From a virus, in IMG/VR virus record IMGVR_UViG_3300032093_000846, positions 1 through 23,664 of that record: DNA of 23,664 nt, one strand, 5' to 3'. This document shows, in pieces, positions 3 to 18,395 of the stretch; the stretch's first letter is position 1; each line of letters opens with the position of its first letter. The notes below the pieces were generated by a model. The model was not told where the DNA came from, made no database searches, and saw only the letters and a program-made list of their open reading frames with translations. The translations under genes were made by a program, and so were the position numbers.

Positions 3-1994
3 ATTCCGGCACCAAAGGAGGATCCAGTAACAGGTCCTCAAAATGTTATACAATTCTCCGTTAGATATAGATATCTAAATGATGGAGGATCAGCTCAGCC
101 GTCTGAAAATATAGAGTTTGTTGATAATGATGGACAAAAGAAAAATGCTTCTTTCTCCAATTGGACCGAATATAAAACAGATATAAGAAAAAAAGTTTAT
201 AGCGATTCGAAGGGAATCTATGTTTGGGCAGACGAGATAACTTCCGATTCTAATGTTCAAAATATTAATCAACTTGATATTCCGATTACAAAAGGTGAAA
301 AAGTTGAAATTCAAATTATGTCCATATCCGAGGGTGGATGGCCAGATAACGCTCAAACGTCGGATTTTTCGGAATCTGTAATAATTTCTTTCCCTGATAG
401 CTTATCTGTAACTGGTATTTCTGATACCCTCGCAACAAATAATCAGGATGCTTCGGTAGTAAGAATGCAGAGAACACTTGATTCACAAGGACTTCCGGTT
501 CACCTTTCCCAACAATTTACTTCGGGGGATAAAGTTTATTTCCATGATACGTTAGGAATAGCTTCTGGTTTTTTTAATAGTGCAGGTGCTGTTATAAGTC
601 TTTTCGATAAGATTAATGATATGCAAAACCAAATAAATGCTCTGACATCAAGATTATCCGATGCTAGAGGAACTTTGGAGGTTTATGTTTTGGACCAATC
701 TGGTAATAAGCTTAAGGTTTCTAAAGGTTCATCGATAAAAATAAATGCTGGTTTTTTTAGCGATATATTTTCTGATCCCTTAGGCTCAGATGCGGGTAAA
801 ATAGCATCTTTCACTTATAATATACAACTTTTCAACCCTTCTGCTTCTATTCTTGAACTTGCTTCTACAATCCCTGGCGGTTTATCACAACAAGCACCAA
901 TTATTGACAGTGGGGAACCAGGATTACCTGCTGGGTATGATGATAATCTAGGATATGGATCCTGCCCAATATCAATAACGTCACTAACCACAGCTGAGGT
1001 TTCTGGAAATCAATCATTCAGACAGGCCCCACCCTTTGCCTCCACAAATTCTAAATCCCAGTTTATTTATCCGAGGTTTAGAAGTGTTGGATTTGATCAG
1101 GACCTTTATACTGGAGGGATTCAGACTGGACAATCTTTTTCTAATTCATTTATAGCGAATTATACATATAATGGTTCTGATGGTATTTCCATTATTCCTT
1201 ATATAAATTTTGGGGTGAATGACACATATCCACAAAATGGAAGCTGTATGATTCCATATAATCCCCTTAGTACACCCTCAACCGTAATTGGTGCAACCTC
1301 TGCAAATGTTTGGAGTGGAACTTATAGCGGAGTTACTGGTGGAACACCCAATGGAGGTGGAAATATATCCGAATTTTGTATAGATGTTAGACATCCATAT
1401 CTTATAAGTATTGGTCAAACTACATCTTTTACAAATTATGATTCATTAGTTAAACCTTATTCCGATGGTTTAAAAACATATCCACCATTTAGACACACTC
1501 AAACTTTTTGGGGAGATACTTCTTTAAATCAATATTGGGTTCAACAAAAATATAGGCTTCCAGATAATGCAACAACAAGCTCATCAACACCTAGAAATGA
1601 TAACATGTATTCAGATAAGCTTGGTTTCACCTCGAATGATCAGTTTCTGATTGGAAAATATTCATGTGGAGCCTATCTTTATTTAGCTCCATCATCTGCA
1701 TCATCGGTACAGGTTTCCGGAAGTACTTCTCTATCAACAACCGAACTTGGTGGCGGGGACAGTAATGCAATAAATGTTCCTCTAGTTTTTCAATTCAGAC
1801 CCGTTGATAAGGCTGGGTACATAGGCGGTTGGAGAAAAAGTGGTAACCTTTCCAATATTACATATACTAAGAAAATAGGGATAGATATACAAGCGAAAAA
1901 TTCGGATATATTTTCCTTTGATGTTCAAGTTACTGGATCTTATAAAAACGATACGTTGGTAGCTCCTAATTTTGATAGTGGCTCTTCAACCTAA
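3..1994 (+). CDS. Virion structural protein, 5'-truncated, with FN3-like region
   Basis: The reading frame is already open at the window's left edge (first full codon at position 3) and runs 663 codons to a TAA, so the true start lies upstream. The ATG at 318 is internal, because the 105 codons before it read as ordinary protein. Those upstream residues plus the next ~30 look like a fibronectin type III-like beta-sandwich: alternating strands, then a V-E-I-Q-I-M-S-I-S-E-G-G-W stretch and S-D-F-S-E-S-V-I-I-S, typical of last FN3 strands. A short predicted coiled coil follows (visible residues ~198-222, heptad-like I/L spacing in DKINDMQNQINALTSRLSD). The remainder is Ser/Thr/Asn/Gly-rich and beta-like with only four cysteines in the part after position 318. 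It sits directly upstream of a giant structural gene and the fibre genes, which supports a tail or baseplate-appendage role. I do not recognise a specific T4 counterpart. Confidence 0.75.
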   Translation: MPAPKEDPVTGPQNVIQFSVRYRYLNDGGSAQPSENIEFVDNDGQKKNASFSNWTEYKTDIRKKVYSDSKGIYVWADEITSDSNVQNINQLDIPITKGEKVEIQIMSISEGGWPDNAQTSDFSESVIISFPDSLSVTGISDTLATNNQDASVVRMQRTLDSQGLPVHLSQQFTSGDKVYFHDTLGIASGFFNSAGAVISLFDKINDMQNQINALTSRLSDARGTLEVYVLDQSGNKLKVSKGSSIKINAGFFSDIFSDPLGSDAGKIASFTYNIQLFNPSASILELASTIPGGLSQQAPIIDSGEPGLPAGYDDNLGYGSCPISITSLTTAEVSGNQSFRQAPPFASTNSKSQFIYPRFRSVGFDQDLYTGGIQTGQSFSNSFIANYTYNGSDGISIIPYINFGVNDTYPQNGSCMIPYNPLSTPSTVIGATSANVWSGTYSGVTGGTPNGGGNISEFCIDVRHPYLISIGQTTSFTNYDSLVKPYSDGLKTYPPFRHTQTFWGDTSLNQYWVQQKYRLPDNATTSSSTPRNDNMYSDKLGFTSNDQFLIGKYSCGAYLYLAPSSASSVQVSGSTSLSTTELGGGDSNAINVPLVFQFRPVDKAGYIGGWRKSGNLSNITYTKKIGIDIQAKNSDIFSFDVQVTGSYKNDTLVAPNFDSGSST

Positions 1995-2011: not shown

Positions 2012-5000
2012 ATGTCTTCATCAAAACTTTTTGATTATAATTCATCATTCAGTGTATTAAGAACAAACCCTTCATTGAGCGGAAATCTTAAAATAACCGT
2101 TGATTCTTCCGGCGGGGTTTCTTTTAATTCAATGAATGTGAATCAGACATTAAGTAGCAATAGATTCAAAAAATTCAATATTACTGGCCAAAACTCGTAT
2201 GCTTTAGATATTTATAATTTTTTAGACCAGGGAAAAATTTCAAGTGATGTTTTTTTTCAGGTTGGGACTTTTACTAGAGGAAACTTAGAGGCTGTAAAAA
2301 ATTTCTCTGGAGAATATGATTTTTTCTATGCTTCCGGAGCTTCAACATTAATTGATAAGAATTACAACGAGTCTTTTTCCTATTTTGCACCACTATGGTT
2401 AAAGAATGAAATACCGGACTACTTTGTTATATTCAAAGTCCCAGAACCTGTAAGTTATAAATATTCCGACAATGTTTCTGTTATTGAAGCTGGCACTAAA
2501 TATAAAATTATACAAAAATTTGAATCTGAGGAGACTTTTACTATAAGCTATGGTAAAACTTTGTCGGGGGAGACCATAATATATTCAGCTGGTGAAATAT
2601 TTACTGGCTCATCTGAATTTTCCACATATCAAGTAATATCAGGTACTGGTATTGTTACAGTTTTTGATGAATTAAAAAATATAGAACTTGTTGATGATGT
2701 TGAAAATTATTTCAAGAAAAAGATATTAAATAATGCTTCCATTATAAAAACATTTGATATCTCGGAAAATACCAAGATAGGTAAATATATTAGAAATATT
2801 TTCAATGATCCCAATTTTTCTAATTCACCCATAGATATAAATTGGGGACCAAATTCTTATACTTATTTCAAAGGTATAAGTATATCGGATGGAATATTTA
2901 CTAAAAAAGGCGAGATTTTATCCGATTATATGTCATCATCAGATTCTGATGTTATGATTAATTTCGAATCAAGAATAACGGGGGGATTTTCTAGAAATGG
3001 GATAGTTTGTCCAAATCTTTTGAATCTTGAGTTTTTATTCGATGATGAAGATTCGGATCTTTATACCATTAATAGATATTTCGGGATGTATGTTTCAAGG
3101 AACGATTTCTCGACCCTTAGACTTAATGGCGAATTTTTCTGGAATTTTAGAAATTCTGAGGGTAATAATGATTATCCTAAGCCACCAAGGGATGCATTTG
3201 GCTATTACTACGATATGAATCCATATGGGGTTACTTCAGACTCTGGTGTTAGATTATATTATGAAAATGCTGATGGTTTTTTACCGGGATCAAACGATGT
3301 AAATATTTATGATTCTAATAAAATTTTCTACCTAACTGATAAGGACGGGAATTTCTATAACCTTAAAAAAGATGAGGAGTATGTAGAAAATTCTGAAAAT
3401 TCACCTCAATCTTCATACGGACCCTACAGCTATTCAACTGAGGTTTTCTCTGCGACCGGATCTACCGGGGCTACTTCCGGTAATGTTGTATTACAAGATG
3501 AATCTATAGATTTATTAAATTTTACTGGGATCACAGCAAAAAGATCAACTATAAAAGGGTTTACGCCAGATTCTGCTGGTAGAGCTTATGGTGAAATAGA
3601 ATTTTTAAAACAATACGATAAGGATCTTCCTTTAACTTTTCGTTTATATTGGCCAAATGGATCATTCAAGGACGGAAATTTAAGGTATGATGTGGTCCAA
3701 TCTGGAGATTTTGCAGAGATTCTTGTTTGGGTGGAGGGATCTTATTACTATTCGGGATCTAATTTTTATTTTAATGCAAGGAATGGGACAGTTTCCCAGA
3801 TTGCTGAGGCCTTATCATTTATAATGGATCAGGTGAATTTTTCAACTTGGGATTCCGGTTATGATAATGGCAGTACAATAACAAGAGTTAGAGACTTCGG
3901 AGAATATGGAAACTTGAATTATTTTATAGGTGCATATTCGGATCACAACGGATTTACTTCACTTTATAAGGGGGTTTGGGACAACACTAAAGCATATAAC
4001 TCTGGAGATGTTGTATTATTTGATGGTGGTTATTTCAAAGCTCTTGTAAATATACCATTGGGATTCAGTGATAATCCATATGGAAATGATTGGGAAAAAT
4101 ACTATACTTTCGAATTTTCTGAATATATCAAGATTAATGGGACTGATGCATCAAACATATCTGGTGTAACCTACTTTAAAGGAGGGACAAGAAAAAGAGA
4201 AAATAGAATAGTTTTTTCGTCTGAGAATTTGGGACTTGTAAATGTAGGAGATTTTATTGGTGTTAGAGACGGGTTTTCTAAGGTAAATGAAATATGTAGA
4301 TTTGTTGATTTACCAGTTTATGAGCCTGATTCCGATAAAGTGATAGGTTTTAATAATTTTGCTTACGAAAGTGTGATAGTTCTAGAGGATCAGAATGTTT
4401 TTGTTGATTTTGGTTCAGATAAATCCTTTAATGTTCACAAAGCAGCTTCTCTTAATTTTGGGGTTTTCACGTTCTTTGATGTGAAAGAATTTGATTTCGA
4501 TTTTTGGTATTCCAATTATGGTTATACTCCAACCGGGGAAACCTATAAATATTATCAGATTCAACCAGGAGTATCAGGTTCGATAAAGCCAAATGTTCCC
4601 TATATAGTTAAGCAGGGTCAGATAACATATGGAAACTCCTCTACCCCTATAGGTGATAGTACAACTGGCACATCCAATAGAATTTTTTACGGAGCAACAG
4701 GATTTTCTTCCTATACAAATGCAAATCCGGACCTATTTAAACAAACCGTGGTTTATCCTGCACAATTTTCTGATATTATTTTCGAAGGGATTGGTGGTGC
4801 GTATGGTTTAACCGGTTCTGGATATAATACCGATCTTGATTCATTTAGTGGTTTTATAGGAATACAAAGTTTGAGCCCAGGATCGCTACCAGAAAATGCA
4901 ACAAAGCTTGATACTTTTACGAGGGGAAAGATAGGAAGTGAATATTCTTATTTGGAAGAGAATTACAATACTTCGCTTTCCAATATATCAAGGATAGTTC

Positions 5001-7519
5001 CTTATATTAATAAATGGGTTTATTTGGGAGGAAGTGATGCAAGAGGTAATAGATATAGATTAAATTCAAGTCCAGCTTTTACCCCAACAAACTTCTCACC
5101 AAGTCTGGATAGGAATTCACCAGACCCAAGATATCTAACCCATGAATGGTTCCTTCTACAAACTCCTCCCCCAGATTTCCCATTAGCATTAATGAACGAT
5201 CAGAATAGTTACCTTTCGTCCGATTTAGATATGACCTTATTGAAAAGTGCGGATCCTGTGGACGAGCTTTATCTTTCTTCATATTTCACTGTTGAACCTG
5301 AGGATTATCCTATTGAATTTAGGGATCTAAAATCGTATACAAAGGAGCTTTTCTCTCCTCTTATTTATAGCAAGACTGATGGATTTTATGAGACTCTTTT
5401 CAGAGGAATAAAAATAACATTTAAAAGAAGATCTAATCTACAAAATCCACTAAATGATTCATTAGATAGATATGTTCCAAGATACAGGGGATACGAAGAT
5501 TATAAATTTTCTGCTGTATTAAGACCAATTTATGAAAATACAACGGACATCCAATCTCCTGTTAGATATGAAATTATTGAAAATGCTCAGCAAAAATTTA
5601 TTGTTTTCGTGTGTGATGTTGTTATGTCTGATTACAAATCAATTCCTGTTGGATCAACTGGCGATATTCCTTATTTAGACTATACACTTTTATATTCATT
5701 AAGTAACAAAGAATCCCTTGTTTCAGCTACTGGGGAAATAGGGCAAAGATTCTATAAAAACGGAGATGTTAAATTAAGTTGTGCATTGGATTTATCTGTT
5801 ACCTCAGGAAGCTTTGTTAATGCAACCTCGGCAGGATCAATCAATCTCATACCGAATGCAGACTATGATACTGATCTTAGAGATGAAATACATTCATTCT
5901 TCGTTGAAACAACAGATTCCACATCAAGTACTGTACAGGATCCTACAGGTTTCGCTAGTTTTAAGGTGCCTTCATTTTCATCAAGCCCCGTGGTATCTTA
6001 CCCGTGGCCTACTGGGGTTGGACCAAATTATATAAGCTTTGGTAGGGTAACTTCACAAAGTGCTACTGGAGCATATTATTTCGTTTTACCTTTTTCAACA
6101 GCTGACCCTGTTACTATTCCTTTTGGTGCCCAGTCAATCTACCAAAATAAACCAGTGTTCCAGGTGGATGGAGGTTTAAATTACTATGACGCAATACTGA
6201 GAAGAATATCTGCATCTGAACTTTATTCAAGGATAAATTCAAGATCGCAATTCATTAAATATACAACCTATTCATGGGACGGGACACAAACAGTTTCTTC
6301 CTCCGATCAATTCGAAATAAATTTGGAAAGACCAACCAGGATTATTAAAAATGCTGGGTCGTATCCAACCAAATTTTTTGGAGGACCTAAAAATTTAGAT
6401 GATTACAAGCCAACAGCATATAATATTAATACCGGATCAGCATATTCGTCCACACTTTTAAGATATTCCGGTGAGTATGAACCGCTGACAAGAAAAATAA
6501 TACATTTTGATAGGGACAAAAGCGATTCTTTATCTGGATATGGAATTTTAGATTTATCCTTTAGAAATTGTAATTTTGCTCCGGCAAAGTATTATTTTGG
6601 AGTAATAAAAAATCTAAATTTTTCAAAAGTTTCACTTGGAAACAATATTTTAGCATTAAGCCAAAATCTTCCGGAGGGACCGGTTTATCCCCTTATTGAT
6701 CAATCTCCAATATGGAAAAAAGACTTCAATACATTCCAATCTAGCTGGGATCCTGGATATTATGAATTTTTTACCGGACCATCAATCTATCAAAAAGTAG
6801 CGGGAACTAGATCAATGATAGAGAGTAAAACTTTTTTTGGTTCAAAAATGATGCAAACACCATTCGAAGTTGATTTTGACAATTATATAATTTTACAGAT
6901 TTCTAGAACTAGTGGAAATAGCGATGTTAATTTCATAAATTCCCAAATTAACTCATTTTTGGAAAGTATACAATCAATTACTCCCGAAAATTCAGGAACG
7001 GGGATTGGAAAACCTGATAGATATCTTTCAGGAACAGATTATAACAAAATGGATCTTGCAATATTTCCAAACGCTGAATTAATCTGGCAATATTTTCCCG
7101 AAACAAAAACTGTTGGTGGTATTATAAGACTAGATAGAATGCTTAGAAGGTATCTTTTAAATGAGGGCATAAAAAAAGTTTTCATAGATAATATAATATC
7201 CGATTTTGGAGTTGGTGATCCAAATTCTATTAATGATGATGTTAATGCATACATTGACAGTAATGTTTCTGTTTTATATCAGGGATTAACATTCGATCTT
7301 TTTGTAAATGAAGATACAGAAACTGGAATTTCAGATATGGATCAATCTATAATAGTAAGAGGGGATTTAAGCAATTCCGATTTTTTTAAATATGGATACT
7401 ATCCAGAAACCAATTTCAAATTAACTAAAATAAATGATTTAATTTATTCCTTTGAATATAATCTATCTGGCGAATTTGCATATTATATGCAATTCAATTT
7501 AAAGATCAATAAAATATAA
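2012..7519 (+). CDS. Giant virion structural protein (1835 aa) with CBM5/12-like motif
   Basis: This is the longest gene in the window. No T4 homologue is recognised. Composition is aromatic-rich (F, Y, W), Ser/Asn/Gly-rich and beta-like throughout, with no signal peptide or membrane segment, as in large phage tail proteins. The N-terminus (L-R-T-N-P-S-L-S-G-N-L-K-I near residue 17) resembles the opening of large conserved structural proteins I associate with phages of Bacteroidota; this is recollection, not a search result. Residues 656-694 fit the carbohydrate-binding module 5/12 pattern: W656, Y662, G665-D666, Y674, A677, P689 and W694. That points to glycan contact at the host surface. 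It starts 17 nt after the preceding gene and ends 2 nt before the first collagen-like fibre gene, so co-transcription and joint assembly are likely. Baseplate-associated or tail-fibre-base protein is the best guess; a tape measure is unlikely because long helices are absent. Confidence 0.75.
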   Translation: MSSSKLFDYNSSFSVLRTNPSLSGNLKITVDSSGGVSFNSMNVNQTLSSNRFKKFNITGQNSYALDIYNFLDQGKISSDVFFQVGTFTRGNLEAVKNFSGEYDFFYASGASTLIDKNYNESFSYFAPLWLKNEIPDYFVIFKVPEPVSYKYSDNVSVIEAGTKYKIIQKFESEETFTISYGKTLSGETIIYSAGEIFTGSSEFSTYQVISGTGIVTVFDELKNIELVDDVENYFKKKILNNASIIKTFDISENTKIGKYIRNIFNDPNFSNSPIDINWGPNSYTYFKGISISDGIFTKKGEILSDYMSSSDSDVMINFESRITGGFSRNGIVCPNLLNLEFLFDDEDSDLYTINRYFGMYVSRNDFSTLRLNGEFFWNFRNSEGNNDYPKPPRDAFGYYYDMNPYGVTSDSGVRLYYENADGFLPGSNDVNIYDSNKIFYLTDKDGNFYNLKKDEEYVENSENSPQSSYGPYSYSTEVFSATGSTGATSGNVVLQDESIDLLNFTGITAKRSTIKGFTPDSAGRAYGEIEFLKQYDKDLPLTFRLYWPNGSFKDGNLRYDVVQSGDFAEILVWVEGSYYYSGSNFYFNARNGTVSQIAEALSFIMDQVNFSTWDSGYDNGSTITRVRDFGEYGNLNYFIGAYSDHNGFTSLYKGVWDNTKAYNSGDVVLFDGGYFKALVNIPLGFSDNPYGNDWEKYYTFEFSEYIKINGTDASNISGVTYFKGGTRKRENRIVFSSENLGLVNVGDFIGVRDGFSKVNEICRFVDLPVYEPDSDKVIGFNNFAYESVIVLEDQNVFVDFGSDKSFNVHKAASLNFGVFTFFDVKEFDFDFWYSNYGYTPTGETYKYYQIQPGVSGSIKPNVPYIVKQGQITYGNSSTPIGDSTTGTSNRIFYGATGFSSYTNANPDLFKQTVVYPAQFSDIIFEGIGGAYGLTGSGYNTDLDSFSGFIGIQSLSPGSLPENATKLDTFTRGKIGSEYSYLEENYNTSLSNISRIVPYINKWVYLGGSDARGNRYRLNSSPAFTPTNFSPSLDRNSPDPRYLTHEWFLLQTPPPDFPLALMNDQNSYLSSDLDMTLLKSADPVDELYLSSYFTVEPEDYPIEFRDLKSYTKELFSPLIYSKTDGFYETLFRGIKITFKRRSNLQNPLNDSLDRYVPRYRGYEDYKFSAVLRPIYENTTDIQSPVRYEIIENAQQKFIVFVCDVVMSDYKSIPVGSTGDIPYLDYTLLYSLSNKESLVSATGEIGQRFYKNGDVKLSCALDLSVTSGSFVNATSAGSINLIPNADYDTDLRDEIHSFFVETTDSTSSTVQDPTGFASFKVPSFSSSPVVSYPWPTGVGPNYISFGRVTSQSATGAYYFVLPFSTADPVTIPFGAQSIYQNKPVFQVDGGLNYYDAILRRISASELYSRINSRSQFIKYTTYSWDGTQTVSSSDQFEINLERPTRIIKNAGSYPTKFFGGPKNLDDYKPTAYNINTGSAYSSTLLRYSGEYEPLTRKIIHFDRDKSDSLSGYGILDLSFRNCNFAPAKYYFGVIKNLNFSKVSLGNNILALSQNLPEGPVYPLIDQSPIWKKDFNTFQSSWDPGYYEFFTGPSIYQKVAGTRSMIESKTFFGSKMMQTPFEVDFDNYIILQISRTSGNSDVNFINSQINSFLESIQSITPENSGTGIGKPDRYLSGTDYNKMDLAIFPNAELIWQYFPETKTVGGIIRLDRMLRRYLLNEGIKKVFIDNIISDFGVGDPNSINDDVNAYIDSNVSVLYQGLTFDLFVNEDTETGISDMDQSIIVRGDLSNSDFFKYGYYPETNFKLTKINDLIYSFEYNLSGEFAYYMQFNLKINKI
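3977..4093 (+). other. CBM5/12-like carbohydrate-binding motif inside the giant protein
   Basis: Encodes residues 656-694 of the 1835-residue protein. The spacing W-x5-Y-x2-GD-x7-Y-x2-A, then P and W about 15-20 residues later, matches the small chitin-binding type 3 (CBM5/12) module that many phage and bacterial extracellular proteins use to hold polysaccharide. The call rests on the motif alone. Confidence 0.5.
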
Positions 7520-7521
7520 AT

Positions 7522-9099
7522 ATGCCATTAACCAACATAAAAATATTAAATTATAGCGACAATCAATCGGAATTTATAGATAAGGTAAATTATAATTTTG
7601 ATGATCTCGTGGAGGCACACGGTGGATCTCAAGGAATACTGGGACCTACTGGTGCAGACGGTGCTATTGGTGATAGAGGATTGCCCGGAATTTCAGGATC
7701 CCCTGGAAGAAGAGGAAATAGATGGTATATACAACCAACTTCTCCATTTGGTAGTAACGTTTCTGAGGGAGATTTTTGGATTGATTCCGCTGGGGATATT
7801 AGGGTTTTAGACTCTTTAGGATGGTCGTTTACCGGTTATAGTATTTATGGTGAAGGCAAGATATTTGAATCCAAGGATTCGTATTTTAGCTATGGAGGTA
7901 CAGGTCAATCAGTTTATATGAACCAGATTAATGGTGAAAATTATTTAATGATTGTTGCTGATAGAACATCAAATTCTGGAATTCTAAACGAGAATTTATC
8001 AAAATTTGTTGTTTCCGTAGATCAGACCATAAATTCTGGTCCGCTAGTGGAATTTTCTAAAAGTGATGTTGAGGATGGCTCAATTCAGGATTATTCAATC
8101 CACCCAGTATTCAAATGGGAAAATACTTCGCCCAATGATAATTCTTTACTTTTGCAAATACCTGGAGGGTCTTTTAATATGGGAGCAAGTGGAGGATTCC
8201 AAGCTAATTTTTCGGATTTTAATTTTAGATCAACAAGGAATATTGACATAGACTACGGGAATACAAATTCCGGAATTTATTCAACTGGTGGAATTTCTAT
8301 AAATGCTGGTCCGACGTCATCATTCATTTTTAGAAGCAATCAATTAAATATACACGGAGGTTCAGGATCTGCTACGGGATCTTTTAATTTCTTTCCACAA
8401 GGAAACCAGGACGTTCCAAGTGTTACCTTAAATATTGGAGGAACCTCCGGATTAAGAACGGAAAGAACATCAGATGACTTTAACTCTTTGTCTCACAATG
8501 TTTATCCACTTTATCTGGGTAGTTCGAATGGTCCAGAATTTTACGTCAACACAAAGGGTAAAATTAGAATAAAAAAAACCCAGTCACCATATACAATAAG
8601 ATCTTCAACTCCTGGAGCAACCGGTACATATTTGACTGAAAATATAAATTGGTTTCTTATATCTAGACCGCAAACACCTCAACAATCGGTAGTTCTTGGT
8701 GACGGTAATAGAATACTTCTTAATACAAATCCTATAACATCTGGTAATATTGGAATTGGTATTTTTACAGGATCTGATGGATCATTTGGAACTACTGGTG
8801 GTATAAATCCGGGAGAAGCTATAGAAATAAATGTTACTCTATCCAGAAATGCCACGGAAAATTCGGTTAATTATCCGAATAGTCTTTGGCCTAATATGGG
8901 TGTTAATGACGGAACTATTAGATATTTAGGAAAGGGTATCACGGGTGGGTCCGTTTCACCATTGGTTGTTTTTCCCTCAACATCATATTTTAGAAGTGTT
9001 GATTTTAATATTTTGAGGGGACCAACCGGATCTTCAAGCCTAGTTTACTACAGAGCTTATGGCCCATTAGGTGGATCTGCTGGATCTTTTACTCTTTAA
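7522..9099 (+). CDS. Collagen-like tail fibre protein, paralogue 1
   Basis: A 525-residue protein. Residues ~13-30 carry a D-K-V-N-Y-N-F motif shared with the two following genes. Residues 38-67 form ten uninterrupted Gly-X-Y triplets ending at W68. Next comes a G-D-F-W-I-D ... G-W segment (about 82-102), common after collagen-like stretches in phage fibres. Residues ~100-230 align loosely with paralogues 2 and 3 (K-F-V-V-S ... E-F-S-K-S-D ... F-K-W). The C-terminal half is Gly/Ser/Asn-rich, beta-like and not alignable by eye, as expected for a receptor-contact tip. Collagen-like repeats in phage fibres are known to form trimeric rods, so a trimeric fibre is the inference. It begins 2 nt after the giant gene. 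Receptor and exact virion position are unknown. Confidence 0.8.
   Translation: MPLTNIKILNYSDNQSEFIDKVNYNFDDLVEAHGGSQGILGPTGADGAIGDRGLPGISGSPGRRGNRWYIQPTSPFGSNVSEGDFWIDSAGDIRVLDSLGWSFTGYSIYGEGKIFESKDSYFSYGGTGQSVYMNQINGENYLMIVADRTSNSGILNENLSKFVVSVDQTINSGPLVEFSKSDVEDGSIQDYSIHPVFKWENTSPNDNSLLLQIPGGSFNMGASGGFQANFSDFNFRSTRNIDIDYGNTNSGIYSTGGISINAGPTSSFIFRSNQLNIHGGSGSATGSFNFFPQGNQDVPSVTLNIGGTSGLRTERTSDDFNSLSHNVYPLYLGSSNGPEFYVNTKGKIRIKKTQSPYTIRSSTPGATGTYLTENINWFLISRPQTPQQSVVLGDGNRILLNTNPITSGNIGIGIFTGSDGSFGTTGGINPGEAIEINVTLSRNATENSVNYPNSLWPNMGVNDGTIRYLGKGITGGSVSPLVVFPSTSYFRSVDFNILRGPTGSSSLVYYRAYGPLGGSAGSFTL
7633..7722 (+). repeat. Gly-X-Y collagen-like triplets (10) in fibre paralogue 1
   Basis: Ten consecutive triplets encode G-X-Y with Pro, Asp and Arg in the X and Y positions, without interruption, immediately before a Trp. 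Length and position are nearly the same in the two downstream paralogues. Confidence 0.9.
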
Positions 9100-9121
9100 A
9101 TTTATAATACCCTTGCGGATT

Positions 9122-9129
9122 GATATATA
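9122..9129 (+). promoter_or_regulatory. Candidate late promoter element GATATATA
   Basis: Lies in the 54-nt gap before the second fibre gene, with its first base 32 nt upstream of the ATG. The same octamer occurs in three other intergenic gaps (13020, 16162, 21698). It resembles the TATA-like -10 element of T4 late promoters (TATAAATA). No experimental support, and the background is AT-rich. Confidence 0.35.
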
Positions 9130-9153
9130 TACCATTATAGACTATTCCCAATA

Positions 9154-10848
9154 ATGGCAGATTTAAAACTTTTAAGAATAGAGGACGGAGATTCTCAAAA
9201 AAATCTTACTGATAAATGCAACTTCAATTTCCAGGAGGTTGTACTTTTTGGTGGAGGTCCATATGGAAGAATTGGTGATGAGGGTCCGGATGGACCAAAG
9301 GGAAATGCTGGTCCAATTGGATCTGTAGGGGATCCTGGTGGAAGAGGAAATTTTTGGTATGTTGGTGATACAGAGCCCGTTGGAATATCGGGTAGTCCAG
9401 TCATAGATGGGGATTTTTGGGTAGACACCTCTGATGATAATACTGTTTATATATTTGGTAACTCCCAATGGAATGAATATTTTTTGAATATAAAATCCCA
9501 GGATTTATTTGATATCGATGGCCCAATATCGAATTCTGCTGGAATAACTAATAAATTTGGATATTTTATATCATCCGAAACCCCAATCGATTATAATATT
9601 GTAATAAGTGATAATCAAAGTGCATATACAAATGGTACTCCTTTGCTTCCAAATACCGTACTAAATCCCCAATATAGTAAATTCATCATCAGTACAAATT
9701 CATCCATTAGTGGTGCTTTTTCAAACATATTGGAATTTAATAAATCTGATTATTTGTCCAATCCTTTATATCTCTCAGGTACCCCAAGATTTTATTGGTT
9801 GACAAGTGGTGCATCATCATCGGATAATAAATACGGAATCGGATTCATAACCGGTGGTTATTTCAAGATTGATTCCCCATTTAGAAATTTAGTATTTAAT
9901 GCCGGGAATGGATCAGCTAGTATTAATTCAAATGGATTCAATGTCTCATTAAATTCATCAACAGGGACTCTTTCTATATTATCTGGAAATTTTATAGAAT
10001 TTAATATAAATGGAAATATAACATTCTACGGAAGAAATCTCGCATCAAATTTACAAAATTTTGATTTCTATACTGGATTTTCTCAGAATCTTTTTTCAGG
10101 AAATTTGGGTACTGCTCTTAGATTAATTTCGCAAAACACATCAACCGGGAATTTAAGATATATTTATAATGCAACCTCAAACGATACAGCTTCCTTATTT
10201 ACTGTAAATCAGGTAACCCCATCCCAATTTGGTCTTTTAAAAATTTATGGAGCTGGATTGGTTAGATATAACAAGATAGTAACATCACTTCAGAAATCCC
10301 AAACAATAACACAATCCTCAACTTGGTCCACCCCAGCAACGGTAAATTGGACTACTGTTTTGCCAGGAATTTCTATAAATTCATCGGGAAGTAACTTCCT
10401 TTTCTGTAATAATGGATCCGATTATTTCATAACAAAAGATGCACTTGCTTCTGGTGGTGACAGAGGAATAGCTATTTGGGTTCCTGCAACAGGATCCGCT
10501 CCAGGTAATTACGAGGGCTGGTTGAATCTATTAGAAAATAATGAATCCATAAATTTTAGAGTTTATAGTGACGGTAGCGATTATTTTAGATATATTGGTC
10601 TGAATACGGGAAATTCACCAACCAATTCTCCTAATAATTCGGTTTCAAATAATTATTCTTATGCTGATTTAGGACAAGGTGCATCCATGATAGATATAAC
10701 TATAATTAATATAACAGGTACTGGTAATACAAACGGAAATAGAAGATGGTTTAAAGTTTATTATTCTGCATCAGGAGGAAACTTAACCCCTAGTGGAACA
10801 TCGACAATAAGATGTGGTTCATTAGTAACATTTAATTCAACAGCTTAA
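9154..10848 (+). CDS. Collagen-like tail fibre protein, paralogue 2
   Basis: A 564-residue paralogue of its neighbours. The N-terminal motif is D-K-C-N-F-N-F at residues 20-26, followed by a G-G-G turn. Eleven Gly-X-Y triplets span residues 35-67 and end at W68, the same place as in paralogue 1. A G-D-F-W-V-D segment and a shared block (K-F-I-I-S ... E-F-N-K-S-D ... F-Y-W) follow. The C-terminal ~200 residues, from about S390, are beta-like with many Asn, Gly and Ser and differ from the other two, so the tip has probably diverged for another ligand or position. A 54-nt gap with a candidate promoter precedes it; the next gene starts 2 nt after its stop. Fibre function is inferred from family and position. 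Confidence 0.8.
   Translation: MADLKLLRIEDGDSQKNLTDKCNFNFQEVVLFGGGPYGRIGDEGPDGPKGNAGPIGSVGDPGGRGNFWYVGDTEPVGISGSPVIDGDFWVDTSDDNTVYIFGNSQWNEYFLNIKSQDLFDIDGPISNSAGITNKFGYFISSETPIDYNIVISDNQSAYTNGTPLLPNTVLNPQYSKFIISTNSSISGAFSNILEFNKSDYLSNPLYLSGTPRFYWLTSGASSSDNKYGIGFITGGYFKIDSPFRNLVFNAGNGSASINSNGFNVSLNSSTGTLSILSGNFIEFNINGNITFYGRNLASNLQNFDFYTGFSQNLFSGNLGTALRLISQNTSTGNLRYIYNATSNDTASLFTVNQVTPSQFGLLKIYGAGLVRYNKIVTSLQKSQTITQSSTWSTPATVNWTTVLPGISINSSGSNFLFCNNGSDYFITKDALASGGDRGIAIWVPATGSAPGNYEGWLNLLENNESINFRVYSDGSDYFRYIGLNTGNSPTNSPNNSVSNNYSYADLGQGASMIDITIINITGTGNTNGNRRWFKVYYSASGGNLTPSGTSTIRCGSLVTFNSTA
9256..9354 (+). repeat. Gly-X-Y collagen-like triplets (11) in fibre paralogue 2
   Basis: Eleven uninterrupted G-X-Y triplets directly precede the conserved Trp. 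Third positions are varied, so the repeat is conserved at protein rather than DNA level. Confidence 0.9.
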
Positions 10849-10850
10849 AG

Positions 10851-13013
10851 ATGGGATTTAATACTAAGTATATTTTTAGAGGAGATAGTGATGAAGTTAT
10901 AAGGGATAAAATCAATTATAACTTCAATCAGATAATGTTTTTTGGAGTTGGTCCGGATGGACATGTTGGTCCAATAGGTGCAACTGGTATATTTGGTCCG
11001 GCTGGATTCAAAGGTAAAAAAGGAGTAACCGGAAGTGCTCCTTCCATATGGTATAGACAACCGAATCAACCTACAGGGTCCAAAATATATGATGTCTGGA
11101 TTGATACGTCATCAAGTAATGGTGATATCTATACTTTAGGACCAAGTGGATGGGTTTTTAGTCAATTTAGCCAATTCAATTCGACTTTCTTTGAAGCATA
11201 TGTAAATATACTAGGACCAGGATCTTCGATTGATAAATCAACTATTGGTTTTAATTCAACAAATGTAAATGGTGCAACTGCTTCCCTAGTTTTATCCGAT
11301 AGGATTTTACCATCCTCTGAAATAAATAAAAACGCTTCCAAAGTTGTTATATCAACAATTGATCAAACATCAACCCCCGTGATGACATTTGGAAAATCAA
11401 ATAGCGTTTCCACCGGAGTTCCTTCATTTTATTGGGATTCCATTGGTTCTAATAATAATTTATCACTTAAAAGTGATGGAAATATATCTTTTGTATCATC
11501 TCTGGAAATTAATATCGATACAGATTCTGCATCAACAATTCTTTTCGGAAATTCTGCTTCCTTTGCAAGTAATAATTCATTCAAAATCGGTGGAACTGGC
11601 GACTTTTATATAACAAGTAATTATAGTACCGGGTCAGGAACTCCATTGCTAATTAATACTGGTAATCTAAATCTAAATTCAGATTTTTTTACTATAAATT
11701 TTCCAATGGAAATAAGAACAAGCAATTCCAATTCTTATGTGGCTTCATCGATTCCATTAAATCCGAAATTGGATGGTGGAATACTTTTAAATTCAACAAG
11801 TTCACCTAGTAGGATTTTTGAGATTCTTGATTCATCAGGATCGCCCTATATTTCGCAGGCACCATTAGGAACAAACGGAGCTGGTAATTTTTCTCAAACA
11901 ATTATTGGATCCACTGGTGGGGTTGTGGGAGGAACTGCTGGTCCATTTTCATATTTAGTAAAATCAACATCAAATTACAGACAAAACACGATACTTTTGA
12001 ATGGAGTTTTGCCCTATGCAACTGGCCCAATTTCGCTACAAAACAAAAGAATAAATAATATAATCGACCTTTCTCAGGCATCTTTATGGGTAAATGACGT
12101 TATAGTTATTACTCCAACTTCTTATACCGACCAATCAGATAATGGAATTTACATAAGGATTCCCTCGAGTAATTCAACGTCAAATACCCCACTATATGAG
12201 GATTTTTTATCTTCCACATATAAGATATTTTTAAATTCGATAGATTCAAATTTTCAAGTTAAATATATTAAAGGGTTTGTTTTTTCAATAGCTGGTCTCT
12301 TTTATTATTATGATTTTGCTAACGCCTCCATACCTGTTTCGGCTGGGATAAATTGTCAATATGTTGAATTCACATGGGTTTCTAGGGCTACCCAAACTAG
12401 ACAAGCTCCAAGGGCTTTTTGGAAAACGTGCAATGGATATTATGGACAAATAGACTTTGAATTAATATTACAAACCCAGCCTGTTGTGATTACTAATCCT
12501 TTAGTCATAAATTGGACCACTAATATGAATAGCTATAATAGAACACCACAATCAAATATTTTGGGGGTTGTTCTTGGTTACTCAACTAATCCGGTAAATC
12601 AAGGCGGATTTTTGACTACTCTATTAATTAACAAAATTAATTCAAATGGAACTAAAATTAATCTAGTTACAAGTACTTTACCATTTGGTAATGCTGCAGG
12701 TTATATATTTAAATCTGGAACTTATAATAATCAGGCTGTTACTTCCGCCGATACGATAGAGGTGGAACTAAAGGCTCAAAACACAACCTCCAGTTATACG
12801 GTTATTTATGATTTGCGAATACTCGATGAATTTGGTAATCTATTGGCATCTCAAAATTGGAGTTCTGAAGTTTACGGACAGACAACATCTCAACAAACAA
12901 TTAGAATTCCTGGGGATATATATAATTCTAATACACTTATTATTGAAGCCTTAGCAGAAAGATTTCTTACGCTTACTTCAGGAACTAACGTTAGTGGTCT
13001 TCTTGGAGGTTAA
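10851..13013 (+). CDS. Collagen-like tail fibre protein, paralogue 3
   Basis: The longest of the three paralogues at 720 residues. It shares D-K-I-N-Y-N-F at residues 19-25, ten Gly-X-Y triplets at 34-63, a Trp at 67 and a V-W-I-D-T ... G-W segment. A block K-V-V-I-S ... F-G-K-S-N ... F-Y-W then matches the paralogues. The extra length is C-terminal: a region near residues 390-520 with L-N-G-V-L-P-Y and aromatic stretches, and a final ~200-residue beta-like domain. The longer tip suggests this is the main or outermost fibre subunit, but that is inference. It starts 2 nt after paralogue 2, with no separate promoter seen, so the two are probably one transcript. ATG at 10851 follows directly on the preceding stop and gives an N-terminus that aligns with the paralogues. 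Confidence 0.8.
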   Translation: MGFNTKYIFRGDSDEVIRDKINYNFNQIMFFGVGPDGHVGPIGATGIFGPAGFKGKKGVTGSAPSIWYRQPNQPTGSKIYDVWIDTSSSNGDIYTLGPSGWVFSQFSQFNSTFFEAYVNILGPGSSIDKSTIGFNSTNVNGATASLVLSDRILPSSEINKNASKVVISTIDQTSTPVMTFGKSNSVSTGVPSFYWDSIGSNNNLSLKSDGNISFVSSLEINIDTDSASTILFGNSASFASNNSFKIGGTGDFYITSNYSTGSGTPLLINTGNLNLNSDFFTINFPMEIRTSNSNSYVASSIPLNPKLDGGILLNSTSSPSRIFEILDSSGSPYISQAPLGTNGAGNFSQTIIGSTGGVVGGTAGPFSYLVKSTSNYRQNTILLNGVLPYATGPISLQNKRINNIIDLSQASLWVNDVIVITPTSYTDQSDNGIYIRIPSSNSTSNTPLYEDFLSSTYKIFLNSIDSNFQVKYIKGFVFSIAGLFYYYDFANASIPVSAGINCQYVEFTWVSRATQTRQAPRAFWKTCNGYYGQIDFELILQTQPVVITNPLVINWTTNMNSYNRTPQSNILGVVLGYSTNPVNQGGFLTTLLINKINSNGTKINLVTSTLPFGNAAGYIFKSGTYNNQAVTSADTIEVELKAQNTTSSYTVIYDLRILDEFGNLLASQNWSSEVYGQTTSQQTIRIPGDIYNSNTLIIEALAERFLTLTSGTNVSGLLGG
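10950..11039 (+). repeat. Gly-X-Y collagen-like triplets (10) in fibre paralogue 3
   Basis: Ten uninterrupted G-X-Y triplets; the position relative to the conserved downstream Trp differs from the other paralogues by only a few residues. Confidence 0.88.
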
Positions 13014-13019
13014 ATTTAA

Positions 13020-13027
13020 GATATATA
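13020..13027 (+). promoter_or_regulatory. Candidate late promoter element GATATATA
   Basis: Sits in the 27-nt gap after the third fibre gene, 21 nt upstream of the next ATG. Same octamer as at 9122, 16162 and 21698. AT-rich background makes a chance match possible. Confidence 0.35.
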
Positions 13028-13040
13028 AAAGAAATAAATT

Positions 13041-13286
13041 ATGGGAAAACTTACAAAAAAGGAGAAATCTGAAATTCTTAAATTGTCGAAAAAGTTCATT
13101 CAGATTCATCAGGAACTTTTCACTGTCGAGGAGTCTCTTAAAAACATGTCAAAAAAATCCGAATGTCTTCTTGGTGATTTAGAAAAATGTAGAATGGAAG
13201 AGGAAAGTTTTATAAAATCCCTTTCAAATAAATATGGTGAGGGGATTCTAGATCCTTTCTCTCTATCTTGGGAAAAAAATATATAA
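13041..13286 (+). CDS. Small helical protein of unknown function (81 aa)
   Basis: An 81-residue, charged, almost wholly helical protein. Heptad-like hydrophobic spacing runs from about residue 8 to 65 (I/L/F positions amid many Lys and Glu), consistent with a coiled coil. The C-terminus carries a K-Y-G-E-G-I-L-D-P motif. Two cysteines (near residues 43 and 50) are present without a metal-binding pattern. It lies between the fibre genes and a large tail protein, ending 1 nt before that gene's ATG, so the two are probably translated from one message. The role could be structural or assembly-related. An overlapping frame starting at 12994 was rejected because it would overlap the preceding gene and has less protein-like composition. 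Confidence 0.7.
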   Translation: MGKLTKKEKSEILKLSKKFIQIHQELFTVEESLKNMSKKSECLLGDLEKCRMEEESFIKSLSNKYGEGILDPFSLSWEKNI

Positions 13287-13287
13287 A

Positions 13288-15609
13288 ATGGCATTTTCAA
13301 CAACATCAAAATATGTTCAATTAACTCCATATTTATTATTGGAGTATATGTATGCTGATCAACCCAATCCAGAAGATTACTTTACAAATTCTGGACCCAT
13401 AACAGTGGGGTATGACAAGCTCATAAATGGATACATGTCAAATGGTGTTCAGATTTTTAATCCGGTTCAGGATTATTCTATAACACACAATTCCACTACA
13501 AATAGTGTTGTTAGGATAGCTGAAAACTCCTTTGTTACGCTTAGTTCAGATCTTATAATTCCTTTTAATGATTATTCTGAAGAACTCACAAACACTATAG
13601 ATCTACCAATTACATTTCCTTCTAATTTATTGGTTGTTTATGATACAGTAAAGTATCACATAAGAGCAGGATATAATTTAAATAACCTTGATGGTATAAT
13701 ACTGTCCATAGATTATGAGGATGTAAATCAAAATCCAGTAATAGTATCGCAAATTTTAATTAAAAAAGGAACAGAGCAAGACTATGTTTTAAATCCAAAT
13801 CCTGTTACAATCGGCGCGGATATCTATGATAAATATTTTGAGATAAAGATTCCTAATCTCCGAGATATGAATAATAAATATCTTGTTGCCTCCCCTGTTT
13901 TTAAACCACAAACATTAGCTGGTTTAATAAGTGAAAGTGGAAGGGGATTCATGTATAATTCACCCATAAGAGTAACAACTTGGCAGGTACAAAACACAGT
14001 GGACTTTGCTGGATACGCCAGATATAATTCTTCAAAAATTGGTACTCTTTCCTTGGAGCAAGAGGATCCATTTTCAAACATAGGTGCAACAATTCAAGAA
14101 TCTGATAAAGGTGAATTTTTTGAATTTTTTGCAACCGATAATGAGGGATTTATAGAGGATTTTATTCTTTTCCAAAATTCCATAGGAAATTCATATTACA
14201 TAAGTCACAAAATAGAAGTACTGGAACAGATCGGTGCATCATTTATAAGAACTTCACAGTTTGAAGAAATCCAAACAACATCATATGACACCCCAAATTT
14301 TTATAGACCCATAGTTAGGAATGGTGGAGTTGCTGCTAGTTTCACTTTAAGATACACTATGACACTTATTAACAGTAAGGATCAAAGTAGGACTATAAGA
14401 ATATCATCATATACATCAACCAATCCATCACAGTGGGGAACAAAGATTACACCCATACAGCTTAGTGAATTCCCACAGGTTCAAAGAATTTATAATAGGA
14501 TTTATTCTCAACCAACAATACAGATGAATCCTATAGTTCCCAAACCTAAGGAGATAATAAAATATACCAATGTTTTTATTAATGAGAATTATGTATCCTC
14601 CAGTTTCGATAACTTAACTTTTACAAATAACTCGTTAAGTATAGATACAGGATCATCCCAAACTGTTGCTATGGGTAGCGGGAAGATGACAATAGCTATA
14701 TCCCCTTTCGATAACTATTTTAAATTCAAATTTGTTAAAAGTGGGCCTTCATCGGATCCAGTCCCTATTGATCTTACAAGTTCAGGTGATTTTAGTATTT
14801 CTTTTATAGATCCAACTGGTAAAAAAATACAGGTGCCTTCCCTGAAAGACAATAACCTTGCAAGCCCGTCTAATGGTGAGCTAGCATTTAAAATTGATGA
14901 ATCGTATTCAACCACAATATTGCAATTAAACGACAGAAGATTTTTTATAACTAACAGCGTTTCAATTAACCAAGTTTCAACTTCAGTTACTGATAGGAGC
15001 ACAGTTACAGTTAATTCTGGCACTTCTAGCAACGTTTTAGAAAAAACAATAGAAACAGTTATTAAAGGTAGAAGAGATGAAGCATTGGCTGTTAAATCAT
15101 CAAATAACTCAATTTCTGTTGCTTCGAATACTACTGGAATAATAAATTCCGTAAATAATTCTAATTCTGTCATATATTGGGGTTATTGGAAAAAGGACGG
15201 GGAGGAAGATTTCCAAACTGGACCTACTGCAGCTGCTCCTGTAGTTCAAACCGTAGGACCAACTGCATTTACAAGTGGACAGGATCTTATAGGTCAGGTA
15301 AATGCACCTATTCCTTCCATTAGATCAATCACACCAGCAACATCAGGTCCATCCGGAGCAATAGGAACCGTTTCAACTGCTTCTAATACAAATCAGATAT
15401 TAACAGGAAATACATTGATAGCAGCTCTTTCTGTTGAGATAAGAGCATACAAAAATCTCCTATGGGCGGATAGAACAATATCTAATTATTTCTTAAAACC
15501 TGGTAGACCAGGAAGAATAAAATATCCAAAATTAACCAGGGATGAATTTGTAAAGGCAGCAACAGGTATTCTATCTCCTTCATTTTTAAGAAATCTTAAG
15601 GTAAGATAG
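13288..15609 (+). CDS. Large beta-rich tail structural protein (773 aa), role unknown
   Basis: No T4 counterpart is recognised. The N-terminal ~400 residues are beta-like, with no signal or membrane segment. Residues ~430-600 look like one or more Ig-like sandwiches, including a stretch D-L-T-S-S-G-D-F-S-I-S-F-I-D-P-T-G-K reminiscent of the N-terminal domain of siphophage baseplate protein BppU; this is weak resemblance only. A low-complexity Pro/Thr/Ser/Gly linker spans roughly residues 640-700. The last ~65 residues change character to a basic, helical domain (E-I-R-A-Y-K-N-L-L-W ... L-T-R-D-E-F-V-K-A-A). The gene is followed after 2 nt by a probable tail-tube-fold gene, so a tail or baseplate position is likely. 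I considered tail sheath because of the neighbour, but sheath hallmarks are not visible. Confidence 0.65.
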   Translation: MAFSTTSKYVQLTPYLLLEYMYADQPNPEDYFTNSGPITVGYDKLINGYMSNGVQIFNPVQDYSITHNSTTNSVVRIAENSFVTLSSDLIIPFNDYSEELTNTIDLPITFPSNLLVVYDTVKYHIRAGYNLNNLDGIILSIDYEDVNQNPVIVSQILIKKGTEQDYVLNPNPVTIGADIYDKYFEIKIPNLRDMNNKYLVASPVFKPQTLAGLISESGRGFMYNSPIRVTTWQVQNTVDFAGYARYNSSKIGTLSLEQEDPFSNIGATIQESDKGEFFEFFATDNEGFIEDFILFQNSIGNSYYISHKIEVLEQIGASFIRTSQFEEIQTTSYDTPNFYRPIVRNGGVAASFTLRYTMTLINSKDQSRTIRISSYTSTNPSQWGTKITPIQLSEFPQVQRIYNRIYSQPTIQMNPIVPKPKEIIKYTNVFINENYVSSSFDNLTFTNNSLSIDTGSSQTVAMGSGKMTIAISPFDNYFKFKFVKSGPSSDPVPIDLTSSGDFSISFIDPTGKKIQVPSLKDNNLASPSNGELAFKIDESYSTTILQLNDRRFFITNSVSINQVSTSVTDRSTVTVNSGTSSNVLEKTIETVIKGRRDEALAVKSSNNSISVASNTTGIINSVNNSNSVIYWGYWKKDGEEDFQTGPTAAAPVVQTVGPTAFTSGQDLIGQVNAPIPSIRSITPATSGPSGAIGTVSTASNTNQILTGNTLIAALSVEIRAYKNLLWADRTISNYFLKPGRPGRIKYPKLTRDEFVKAATGILSPSFLRNLKVR

Positions 15610-15611
15610 TT

Positions 15612-16160
15612 ATGTTATTAAATCCAAAAGGCAGTAGTTTTTATTTTGTTTTCCCAAGGGGTTTTTTTCCTGAGGCAATAACTGAAAAGTATCTCCCATA
15701 CATAAGGAAACAGCCGATTCCTTTCGATAATATAAACGATTATATGAATAGTACTATTCAAACCATCGGGTTTCCAAGTATGCAGATAGATAGTGTTGAA
15801 CAAGTAAGGAATCTGGGGAAAAAAATACAATATAAGAGTTCAACACCTATACAGGACCTATTCAGTCAGGATTTTACTATAGATTTCAAAAATACTGACG
15901 GATTTATGAATTACTTCATAATGTTGGATACGGTTTTATGGAATCTTAATTTCAAAAACGAGAATCTTTGGATACAGGACCTACCTTTAAGAATTTTAGA
16001 TGGCGAGGGTAATATAGTTGCTTCAGTTACTTTTAAACAATCTATATTCACCTCATTTACTGAGCTTTCACTTAATTACACCCAGAACAATCCACAATTT
16101 GAATCATTCAAGATGGGTTTTAAATGTAATTATATTGACATCAGAATGGAATTCAAATAA
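15612..16160 (+). CDS. Probable tail tube-fold protein (gp19/gp54-like)
   Basis: A 182-residue protein close to T4 tail tube gp19 (163 aa) in length. The second half has the tube-like order: strand with F-T-I-D-F-K, helix (F-M-N-Y-F-I-M-L-D-T-V-L-W), L-P-L-R-I-L-D-G-E-G-N-I-V, then two closing strands S-F-T-E-L-S-L-N-Y and F-E-S-F-K-M-G-F-K-C-N-Y-I-D. The N-terminal F-Y-F-V-F-P and I-G-F-P-S-M-Q-I-D segments fit the first beta-strands. The tail tube, the tube initiator (gp54) and related baseplate proteins share this fold, so the exact role is open. The gene begins 2 nt after the preceding structural gene. Assignment is by fold pattern, not by clear sequence identity. Confidence 0.5.
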   Translation: MLLNPKGSSFYFVFPRGFFPEAITEKYLPYIRKQPIPFDNINDYMNSTIQTIGFPSMQIDSVEQVRNLGKKIQYKSSTPIQDLFSQDFTIDFKNTDGFMNYFIMLDTVLWNLNFKNENLWIQDLPLRILDGEGNIVASVTFKQSIFTSFTELSLNYTQNNPQFESFKMGFKCNYIDIRMEFK

Positions 16161-17097: not shown

Positions 17098-17175
17098 TTT
17101 CTTAGGGAAATTTAAGAGGAAATTTAAGGTAATTTTATGAATAATTTTGAATCAATAGAATATCAATATATTATG

Positions 17176-17211
17176 ATGGATAGAGGCACTGGTGCGTCTA
17201 TCCATTTTTTT
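17176..17211 (+). terminator. Rho-independent terminator after the resolvase gene
   Basis: A perfect 9-bp stem (arms 17176-17184 and 17197-17205) is extended by a G-G mismatch and three more pairs closing a four-base CTGG loop. A run of seven T follows at 17205-17211. It separates the structural/resolvase transcript from the gp32 gene. Strong by structure; not tested for activity. Confidence 0.85.
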
Positions 17212-17346
17212 ATATAGTAACAATAATATGTACCCAACACACAGGGAAGATAGAAAAAAATAAATTTATATGATCTAAGGGAAACAAAAGTTAAATTAAA
17301 GGTAAAAAAATTAAGAATTAAAATTTAAAAAAAATCAAGAAAAATT
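17212..17346 (+). promoter_or_regulatory. A-rich leader of the gp32-like gene, candidate autoregulatory operator
   Basis: This is the untranslated stretch between the terminator and the gp32-like ATG. The last ~55 nt is very A-rich and C-poor, carries TTAAA at 17291, 17296, 17318 and 17325, and lacks a Shine-Dalgarno sequence. T4 gp32 represses its own translation by binding an unstructured A/U-rich leader nucleated by an upstream pseudoknot. A short CCC/GGG pairing (17233-17235 with 17244-17246) could be the structured nucleation site, but I could not establish a pseudoknot. A promoter must lie in or before this region; none is clear. Confidence 0.35.
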
Positions 17347-18333: not shown

Positions 18334-18346
18334 TATATAATAATTA

Positions 18347-18378
18347 AAAACAGCACTTCTTCAGAGAGGTGCTGTTTT
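18347..18378 (+). terminator. Terminator after the gp32-like gene
   Basis: A perfect 10-bp stem (arms 18347-18356 and 18369-18378) is extended by four inner pairs (one G-U) around a TCAG loop. A short T run is in the 3' arm. It lies 13 nt after the gp32 stop. The downstream primase must be reached by readthrough or by its own promoter. Confidence 0.75.
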
Positions 18379-18395
18379 CATATAAAAAGATCCCT

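Follow-up and report, generated by a model that had tools for sequence, protein, structure and literature searches.

Tandem collagen-headed fibre proteins in a large phage, of which only the last exchanges its appended end module

The 23,664-nucleotide stretch of viral DNA analysed here (IMG/VR record IMGVR_UViG_3300032093_000846, positions 1 to 23,664; hereafter the window) carries three adjacent, co-directional open reading frames (ORFs), F1, F2 and F3, separated by intergenic gaps of 54 and 2 bases, each of which encodes a protein with a collagen-containing head. We consider it moderately probable that these proteins are trimeric tail-tip (baseplate) fibres of a large phage, derived from one ancestral fibre by two duplications, with F1 and F2 as fixed pieces and F3 bearing an exchangeable, receptor-facing tip. 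Across 15 phages with three such genes, F1 and F2 keep their length and C-terminus and F3 exchanges an appended module. The set is thus an old and real group of paralogues in a known kind of structure, and its division into fixed F1/F2 and variable F3 is more ordered than was first read from the sequence (hereafter the original prediction), which had correctly given the lengths of 525, 564 and 720 amino acids (aa). The features of the three genes are:

7522..9099, + strand: F1, 525 aa, first collagen-headed fibre protein, kept end to end in relatives
7564..7617, + strand: predicted N-terminal helix of F1 (residues 15-32) with N-Y-N-F; likely a trimerisation or docking head (low model confidence)
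7624..7722, + strand: collagen-like run of F1 (residues 35-67), 11 Gly-X-Y triplets
7723..7842, + strand: small Trp-led beta domain of F1 behind the collagen (approximately residues 68-107)
8578..9096, + strand: C-terminal beta domain of F1 (residues 353-525), with phage spikes, including CBA120 TSP4 XD1, as best fold matches
9154..10848, + strand: F2, 564 aa, second collagen-headed fibre protein, F1 homologue over its full length
9256..9354, + strand: collagen-like run of F2 (residues 35-67), 11 triplets
10306..10845, + strand: C-terminal domain of F2 (approximately residues 385-564), homologue of the F1 C-terminal domain (probability 97.8%)
10851..13013, + strand: F3, 720 aa, third collagen-headed fibre protein, with a tip that varies among phages
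10950..11039, + strand: collagen-like run of F3 (residues 34-63), 10 triplets
11943..12470, + strand: core end domain of F3 (approximately residues 365-540), kept in F3 orthologues; a probable remote relative of the F1/F2 C-terminal domain
12483..13010, + strand: appended tip of F3 (residues 545-720), with a predicted immunoglobulin (Ig)-like beta-sandwich at residues 580-708 and without a detected sequence relative

The three heads follow one plan: a short helix, predicted in the F1 and F3 models, with an N-x-N-F motif (NYNF at residue 23 in F1, NFNF at residue 23 in F2 and NYNF at residue 22 in F3), then 11, 11 and 10 uninterrupted Gly-X-Y triplets, respectively, and a beta stretch led by the first Trp (residues 68, 68 and 67); motif, triplets and Trp are as originally described. 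When the regions were aligned one at a time, residues 1-33, the collagen run and residues 68-230 each outscored every one of 300 shuffles for all three pairs, upholding a shared block to about residue 230, and BLASTP among the proteins returned 28.6-33.2% identity over 214-295 residues (expectation values (E) of 2e-18, 1e-22 and 5e-17). Pairwise alignment thus carried the homology past the Gly-X-Y stretch, to about residue 215-230, and because the regions flanking the collagen beat all shuffles, the homology of the heads is, by alignment, no collagen artefact. Residues N23, N25 and F26 and the Gly of all 11 triplets are invariant in 16 of 16 F1 rows; N-x-N-F is present in 158 of 158 heads, a partly circular count, as the search profile itself contains the motif. 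Triplet number lies at 10-12 in all window-lineage heads but one (61 of 62, the odd one out having the broken frame of L094), at 7-8 in every head from the single-copy loci L105-L123 (12 of 12) and at 8-14 in the 84 other heads, and this near-fixed length suggests a rod of set length (~9-10 nm, computed at 2.9 Å per residue) more than a free linker. Scores for the Pfam family Collagen (PF01391) were 19.3, 16.9 and 14.5 bits for F1, F2 and F3, below the curated cut-off of 27.2 bits, and by this measure the runs are collagen-like segments and not members of PF01391.

The C-terminal parts had been described as unlike each other, a claim that fails for F1 and F2, is doubtful for the core of F3 and holds for the last part of F3. 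With single sequences, the resemblance between the F1 and F2 C-terminal parts was marginal (4 of 300 shuffles reached the observed score), and that of F3 was reached by 254 of 300 shuffles against F1 and 247 of 300 against F2. Profiles built from 15-16 orthologues each, with L087 included for F1 and F2, aligned F1 with F2 over 472 columns (1-508, E 5e-46), and their end domains alone matched at a probability of 97.8% (E 8e-13; 20 column-shuffled controls at or below 0.7%). F1 and F2 are, at profile level, homologous end to end. The F3 profile aligned with F1 and F2 only up to approximately residue 295; its core, compared with pooled F1, F2 and first genes of two-copy phages, matched at a probability of 72-78% (controls at or below 0.6%) and is probably a remote relative of the F1/F2 C-terminal domain. 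Only residues ~545-720 of F3, the last ~175, are clearly a separate module. This tip had no relative among ORFs of at least 80 aa in the related loci retrieved by then, nor in phage records, and matched the beta region of L079, L083 and L088 at a probability of only 0.2%.

Variation was followed in 15 dereplicated three-gene phages, after L078, L091 and L092 (near-identical or identical copies), L082, L087 and L090 (cut or incomplete sets) and L094 (F2 frame broken) had been dropped. Lengths ranged over 509-594 aa in F1, 555-671 aa in F2 and 575-1284 aa in F3; the rise in length along the window is no rule, as F3 is shorter than F2 in L080 and L104. Median pairwise identity at the C-terminal end was 0.70 for F1 (residues 516-525), 0.52 for F2 (516-564) and 0.11 for F3 (666-720). 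The trees of the F1 and F2 C-terminal parts have 11 (F1) and 12 (F2) of 12 splits in common with the tree of W1835, the large protein encoded directly upstream, with no conflict at support 0.9. Comparison across relatives also caught exchange in the close pair L085/L095, in which identity is 0.93 in W1835, 0.90 and 0.80 in the F1 and F2 C-terminal parts and 0.88 in the F3 head, and the F3 tip alone falls (0.29 versus 0.77-0.93 elsewhere), ending in a HINT domain in L095 and in a different Cys-led box in L085. The predicted diversification of tips therefore stands for F3 and not for F1 and F2, for which the suggested use of several receptors is unlikely, because their ends are conserved and their trees follow W1835. 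As tandem paralogues on a common base, of which multi-spike sets are known examples (PMC8825819), the three could nevertheless be receptor-binding fibres that act independently on different receptors, like the branched tailspike complexes of Ackermannviridae, and the F3 end does differ from those of F1 and F2 inside one phage. We regard this as unlikely, given that the ends of F1 and F2 are kept from phage to phage and inherited together with the backbone, unlike receptor-binding tips, and that only F3 swaps its end.

Two further modules were seen on F3 and its counterparts. A common Cys-led C-terminal module of ~110 residues ends F3 of L085, a three-copy phage, and the second fibre in L096 and L098, both two-copy phages; scans of L085 and L096 gave no NCBIfam family match, and in L085 no Pfam match was found at E 0.01 beyond the families tallied for the F3 set. 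DUF5122 beta-propeller repeats occur in 3 of the 15 F3 proteins (L079, L083 and L088; 1159-1284 aa; E down to 6e-19), the best repeat of L079 lying at residues 789-818, ahead of the conserved F3 end domain.

The fibre genes occupy a conserved slot, whose other members in the window are:

3..1994, + strand: U1220, C-terminal part of a conserved protein of ~1220 aa, cut by the window start
2012..7519, + strand: W1835, large protein encoded immediately ahead of the fibre genes in nearly all relatives, a putative docking partner
13041..13286, + strand: g81, small conserved protein behind F3
13288..15609, + strand: g773, conserved protein closing the slot, without the C-terminal HINT domain added in several relatives
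15612..16160, + strand: g182, tail-tube-like (phrog_45, E 1.3e-6), marking the surroundings as tail genes

A search with W1835 retrieved 48 related loci, 46 of which have a head gene after W1835 (L121 ends inside W1835 and L123 shows no head gene), and a search with F1 retrieved 71. In 39 selected representatives (L004 and 38 of the 71 loci retrieved with F1), the head genes lay in the same slot, preceded by U1220 and W1835 and followed by g773 wherever the contig extends that far. The order U1220, W1835, one to three head genes and g773 recurs even in distant loci, and close relatives keep the order W1835-F1-F2-F3-g81-g773-g182, often with a gene of ~280 aa ahead of g773; this gene sits at the g81/g773 junction (13286-13288) in many relatives and is absent from the window, L081 and L093. 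Among the 98 of 121 loci with both W1835 and g773 in view, one, two and three head genes were found in 31, 45 and 22, or in 26, 26 and 19 of 71 loci after dereplication, which removed identical heads only and left the near-duplicates L077/L078 and L081/L094 in place; loci were retrieved via the F1 head or W1835, so that zero-copy loci are under-sampled. Five related records of 127-434 kb have a full head at exactly three adjacent places, their remaining matches being collagen-only; the Collar family PF07484 is found in none of these five window-type records and is present in a sixth, G006. A simple dependence of W1835 length on fibre number was considered and is not borne out by the medians of 1660, 1565 and 1838 for one, two and three copies (n = 23, 26 and 19). 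With F3 as the query, five pattern matches to related loci were obtained, none of them confirmed. In L094, F2 is split into two ORFs of 86 and 484 aa (17110-18827) and is whole in L081, of the same phage type, so that a frameshift or assembly error is likely.

Within the window, sigma-70-like promoter and terminator matches were no more frequent than chance (20 found versus 34.7 expected, and 6 versus 4.0). Towards its end, a cut ORF (23216-23664) without a PHROG match at E 0.01 has a K-x-D-G stretch, which we take to resemble the motif of nucleotide-transferring ligases.

Among named phages, W1835 has relatives in phages of Tenacibaculum and Prevotella (Lak) and in phage PAU, the host of which has been reassigned to Sphingobacterium (PMC3738902); a Bacteroidota host is therefore likely for the window phage. 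The search of named phages with F1 returned one record only. PAU gp266 has the head directly behind gp265, the W1835 homologue; PTm1 and pT24 also have a W1835 homologue, and no head was found in the ~26 kb retrieved from each.

The duplication proposed at the outset is borne out by three orthologous head groups and by single- and two-copy relatives in the same gene slot. F1, F2 and F3 heads are each monophyletic (15 of 15 in each case; support 1.0, 0.73 and 1.0), and the F3 heads cluster with those encoded by the second gene in two-copy phages (0.96). Two- and three-copy loci among L016-L075 form separate clades for their first and second genes, with further head-gene duplication in L017, L044 and L060, and on this phylogenetic evidence the slot expanded independently in that lineage, copy number having risen independently in two lineages.

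An unexpected feature of the relatives is the presence of HINT domains on F3 and g773. A HINT domain lies at the extreme C-terminus of 8 of the 15 F3 orthologues (L076, L077, L079, L083, L084, L086, L093 and L095), mostly behind a Gly/Ser-rich linker; Pfam matches across the 15 comprised Intein_splicing (6), AXH (4), PT-HINT (4) and Hint (3), and the F3 profile matched solved HINT/intein domains, including the bacterial intein-like 2lwy (E 1.7e-9). HINT domains also occur in head proteins of L021, L022, L036, L050 and L061 and as C-terminal additions to g773 homologues of L076, L077, L081, L084, L086, L093 and L117, in all of these except L081 starting a few residues past the end point of the window g773. 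All 24 dereplicated domains have an N-terminal Cys, a T/S/VxxH block and a C-terminal HN, and the residue after the final HN is never Cys or Ser and only once Thr (L061), for which reason they would be expected to cleave rather than splice. In the HINT tree, several nodes of which are weakly supported, the F3 domains of L076, L084, L086 and L095 sit among g773 domains and the L081 g773 domain among those of F3, and this mixed placement suggests exchange between both genes. Window F3 and g773 are both without a HINT domain; Pfam gave no HINT match in window F3, and the window is absent from the matches of the local HINT profile. We offer tentatively that F3 is a plug-in tail-tip slot whose swapped modules include autocatalytic HINT domains, also traded with g773, that would cleave and not splice, and whose self-processing may drive maturation of the fibre, release of its tip at a set time or its covalent attachment to another protein; the window phage may then possibly represent the HINT-free state of both genes. 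In the open-access literature we found no description of a HINT domain at a tail-fibre end, which is weak evidence of absence.

Structural comparison centred on the C-terminal domain of F1 (residues 353-525), which was modelled better than the rest of that protein and for which the six best solved-structure rows were all phage spikes or tail parts. The top row was a capsid spike (9ny6_C; Z 5.7, root-mean-square deviation (rmsd) 3.4, 90 residues aligned), and residues 354-518 matched XD1 of TSP4 weakly (residues 78-180; Z 5.3, rmsd 3.5, 93-94 aligned; for 7rej_B, residues 78-179 and 93 aligned). The TSP4 paper (PMC8825819) assigns residues 80-178 to XD1, the fold of a T4 gp9 domain and of gp10 XD1 (DALI Z 5.0 for TSP4 XD1 versus gp10), names StcE as sharing the fold and describes XD1 modules as apparent spacers; StcE (4dny) also appears in the F1 list (Z 3.6, rmsd 3.8, 97 aligned). 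We treat the XD1-type fold of the F1 model as a lead and not as proof of membership. A role as head or collar decoration fibres, rather than tail-tip parts, would fit the capsid spike at the top of the F1 list and weak matches to virion proteins in the PHROG category 'head and packaging' (F1, E 0.079; F3, E 0.0065); it appears very unlikely, as the slot lies between conserved large genes and a tail-tube-like gene, and as most PHROG matches are to 'tail fiber', with the collagen stretch at the centre of every match. Pfam and PHROGs together gave only collagen-driven tail-fibre matches for F1-F3. Comparison of the F1 model with viral predicted structures was uninformative (TM-scores (query) 0.06-0.16). 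For the F3 model, the best rows were transglutaminase/Ig-like sandwiches (Z 8.6, rmsd 2.7, 90 aligned), followed by carbohydrate-binding and then many unrelated sandwiches, and these matches are not taken to indicate a function, the sandwich being a common arrangement.

In the tail-tip fibre arrangement that we favour, the head helix and the collagen rod would bring three chains together as a trimer, and the head would attach to a protein of the baseplate, for which W1835 is the most likely candidate. F1 and F2 would each close with an unvarying beta domain that weakly resembles the XD1 fold shared by T4 gp9/gp10 and CBA120 TSP4, and for these reasons both are most likely invariant elements, structural or spacer, by which other components are held or triggered. 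F3 would follow the same plan with an exchangeable module appended, and its tip is thus most likely the part that faces the receptor on the host. One ancestral fibre would have become two and then three copies through two duplications, after which turnover of the tip was kept only on the F3 branch. Adjacent genes, a similar plan and a variable distal end on F3 would suit consecutive, end-to-end segments of one long fibre, as the stacking suggested in the original prediction; this is not favoured and seems quite improbable, because each protein repeats the docking head, suggesting equivalent attachment sites, and single-copy relatives manage with one protein.

Several observations weigh against the tail-tip fibre arrangement or parts of it. 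The AlphaFold models are poor (mean predicted local distance difference test (pLDDT) of 49.3 for F1 and 47.9 for F3, with head and middle regions mostly below 50), and the Z of 5.3 to XD1 is below the level that the search tool calls reliable. The F1 profile, searched at E up to 0.1, and the F3 profile, at E up to 0.01, gave no sequence match to T4 gp9, gp10 or gp12, and no solved structure matched W1835 or U1220 at E 0.1, so that the term 'baseplate' reflects gene neighbourhood. The link between the F1/F2 end domain and the F3 core fails when two-copy phages alone represent F3 (probability 0.8 and 3.1%). Trees disagree on the first gene of two-copy phages, placing it with F1 (0.825) or with F2 (0.915), so that F2 may be a late gain or may have disappeared from the two-copy phages. 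Further conflicts at support of at least 0.9 separate W1835 from the F1 head (1), and U1220 from the F1 head (2), the F1 C-terminal part (1) and the F3 head (1).

For widespread and hardly annotated large phages, these results give a rule: a fixed slot with one to three collagen-headed fibres. In the window lineage the last fibre alone changes its tip, which points to F3 as a likely host-range determinant and leaves F1 and F2 as poor candidates, and the HINT domains on F3 and g773 of relatives raise the question of self-processing virion proteins.

A similar arrangement is seen in Sphingomonas phage PAU (gp266) and the uncultured phage LR756500 (L004), in which the head also lies directly downstream of a W1835 homologue (E 4e-5 and 2e-20); both differ in having a single copy. 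The LR756500 protein (10001-15370) has 1789 aa, with a second head-like stretch at residues 1445-1475. Bacterial intein-like/HINT domains have counterparts at the ends of the relatives' F3 described above and, as a difference, none in F3 or g773 of the window. The trimeric phage fibres EPclA-D of enterohaemorrhagic Escherichia coli (EHEC) prophages, with coiled coil and collagen stalk, are alike in plan; however, their PfN, PfC and Pf2 domains were not found in F1-F3 (Pfam scan, E up to 1), and their collagen length varies in multiples of three, according to the account excerpted from PMC3368898, whereas here it is near-fixed per lineage. Ackermannviridae TSP1-4 (CBA120) likewise form several paralogous trimeric tail-tip spikes with common N-terminal modules and an XD1-like fold; in the pages consulted of PMC8825819 each TSP recognises a different lipopolysaccharide, in contrast to the two fixed ends of three found here, and no collagen is mentioned for the TSPs, unlike F1-F3. 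T4 gp9, gp10, gp11 and gp12 offer the parallel of tandem genes for trimeric proteins of the baseplate periphery, trimer and location being presumed for F1-F3, and the modelled F1 C-terminal domain weakly resembles the XD1 fold common to gp9 and gp10; the F1 and F3 profiles differ in matching none of gp9, gp10 and gp12 in sequence. T4 gp9-gp12 are not known to have a collagen rod, which here forms part of the shared region. According to PMC3004832, gp10, gp11 and gp12 are thought to share one ancestral fold that later specialised, with their common motif in the C-terminal parts, whereas the clearest shared part of F1-F3 is the head; tandem trimeric baseplate proteins that diverged from one ancestor would be a feature that T4 and the window phage have in parallel.

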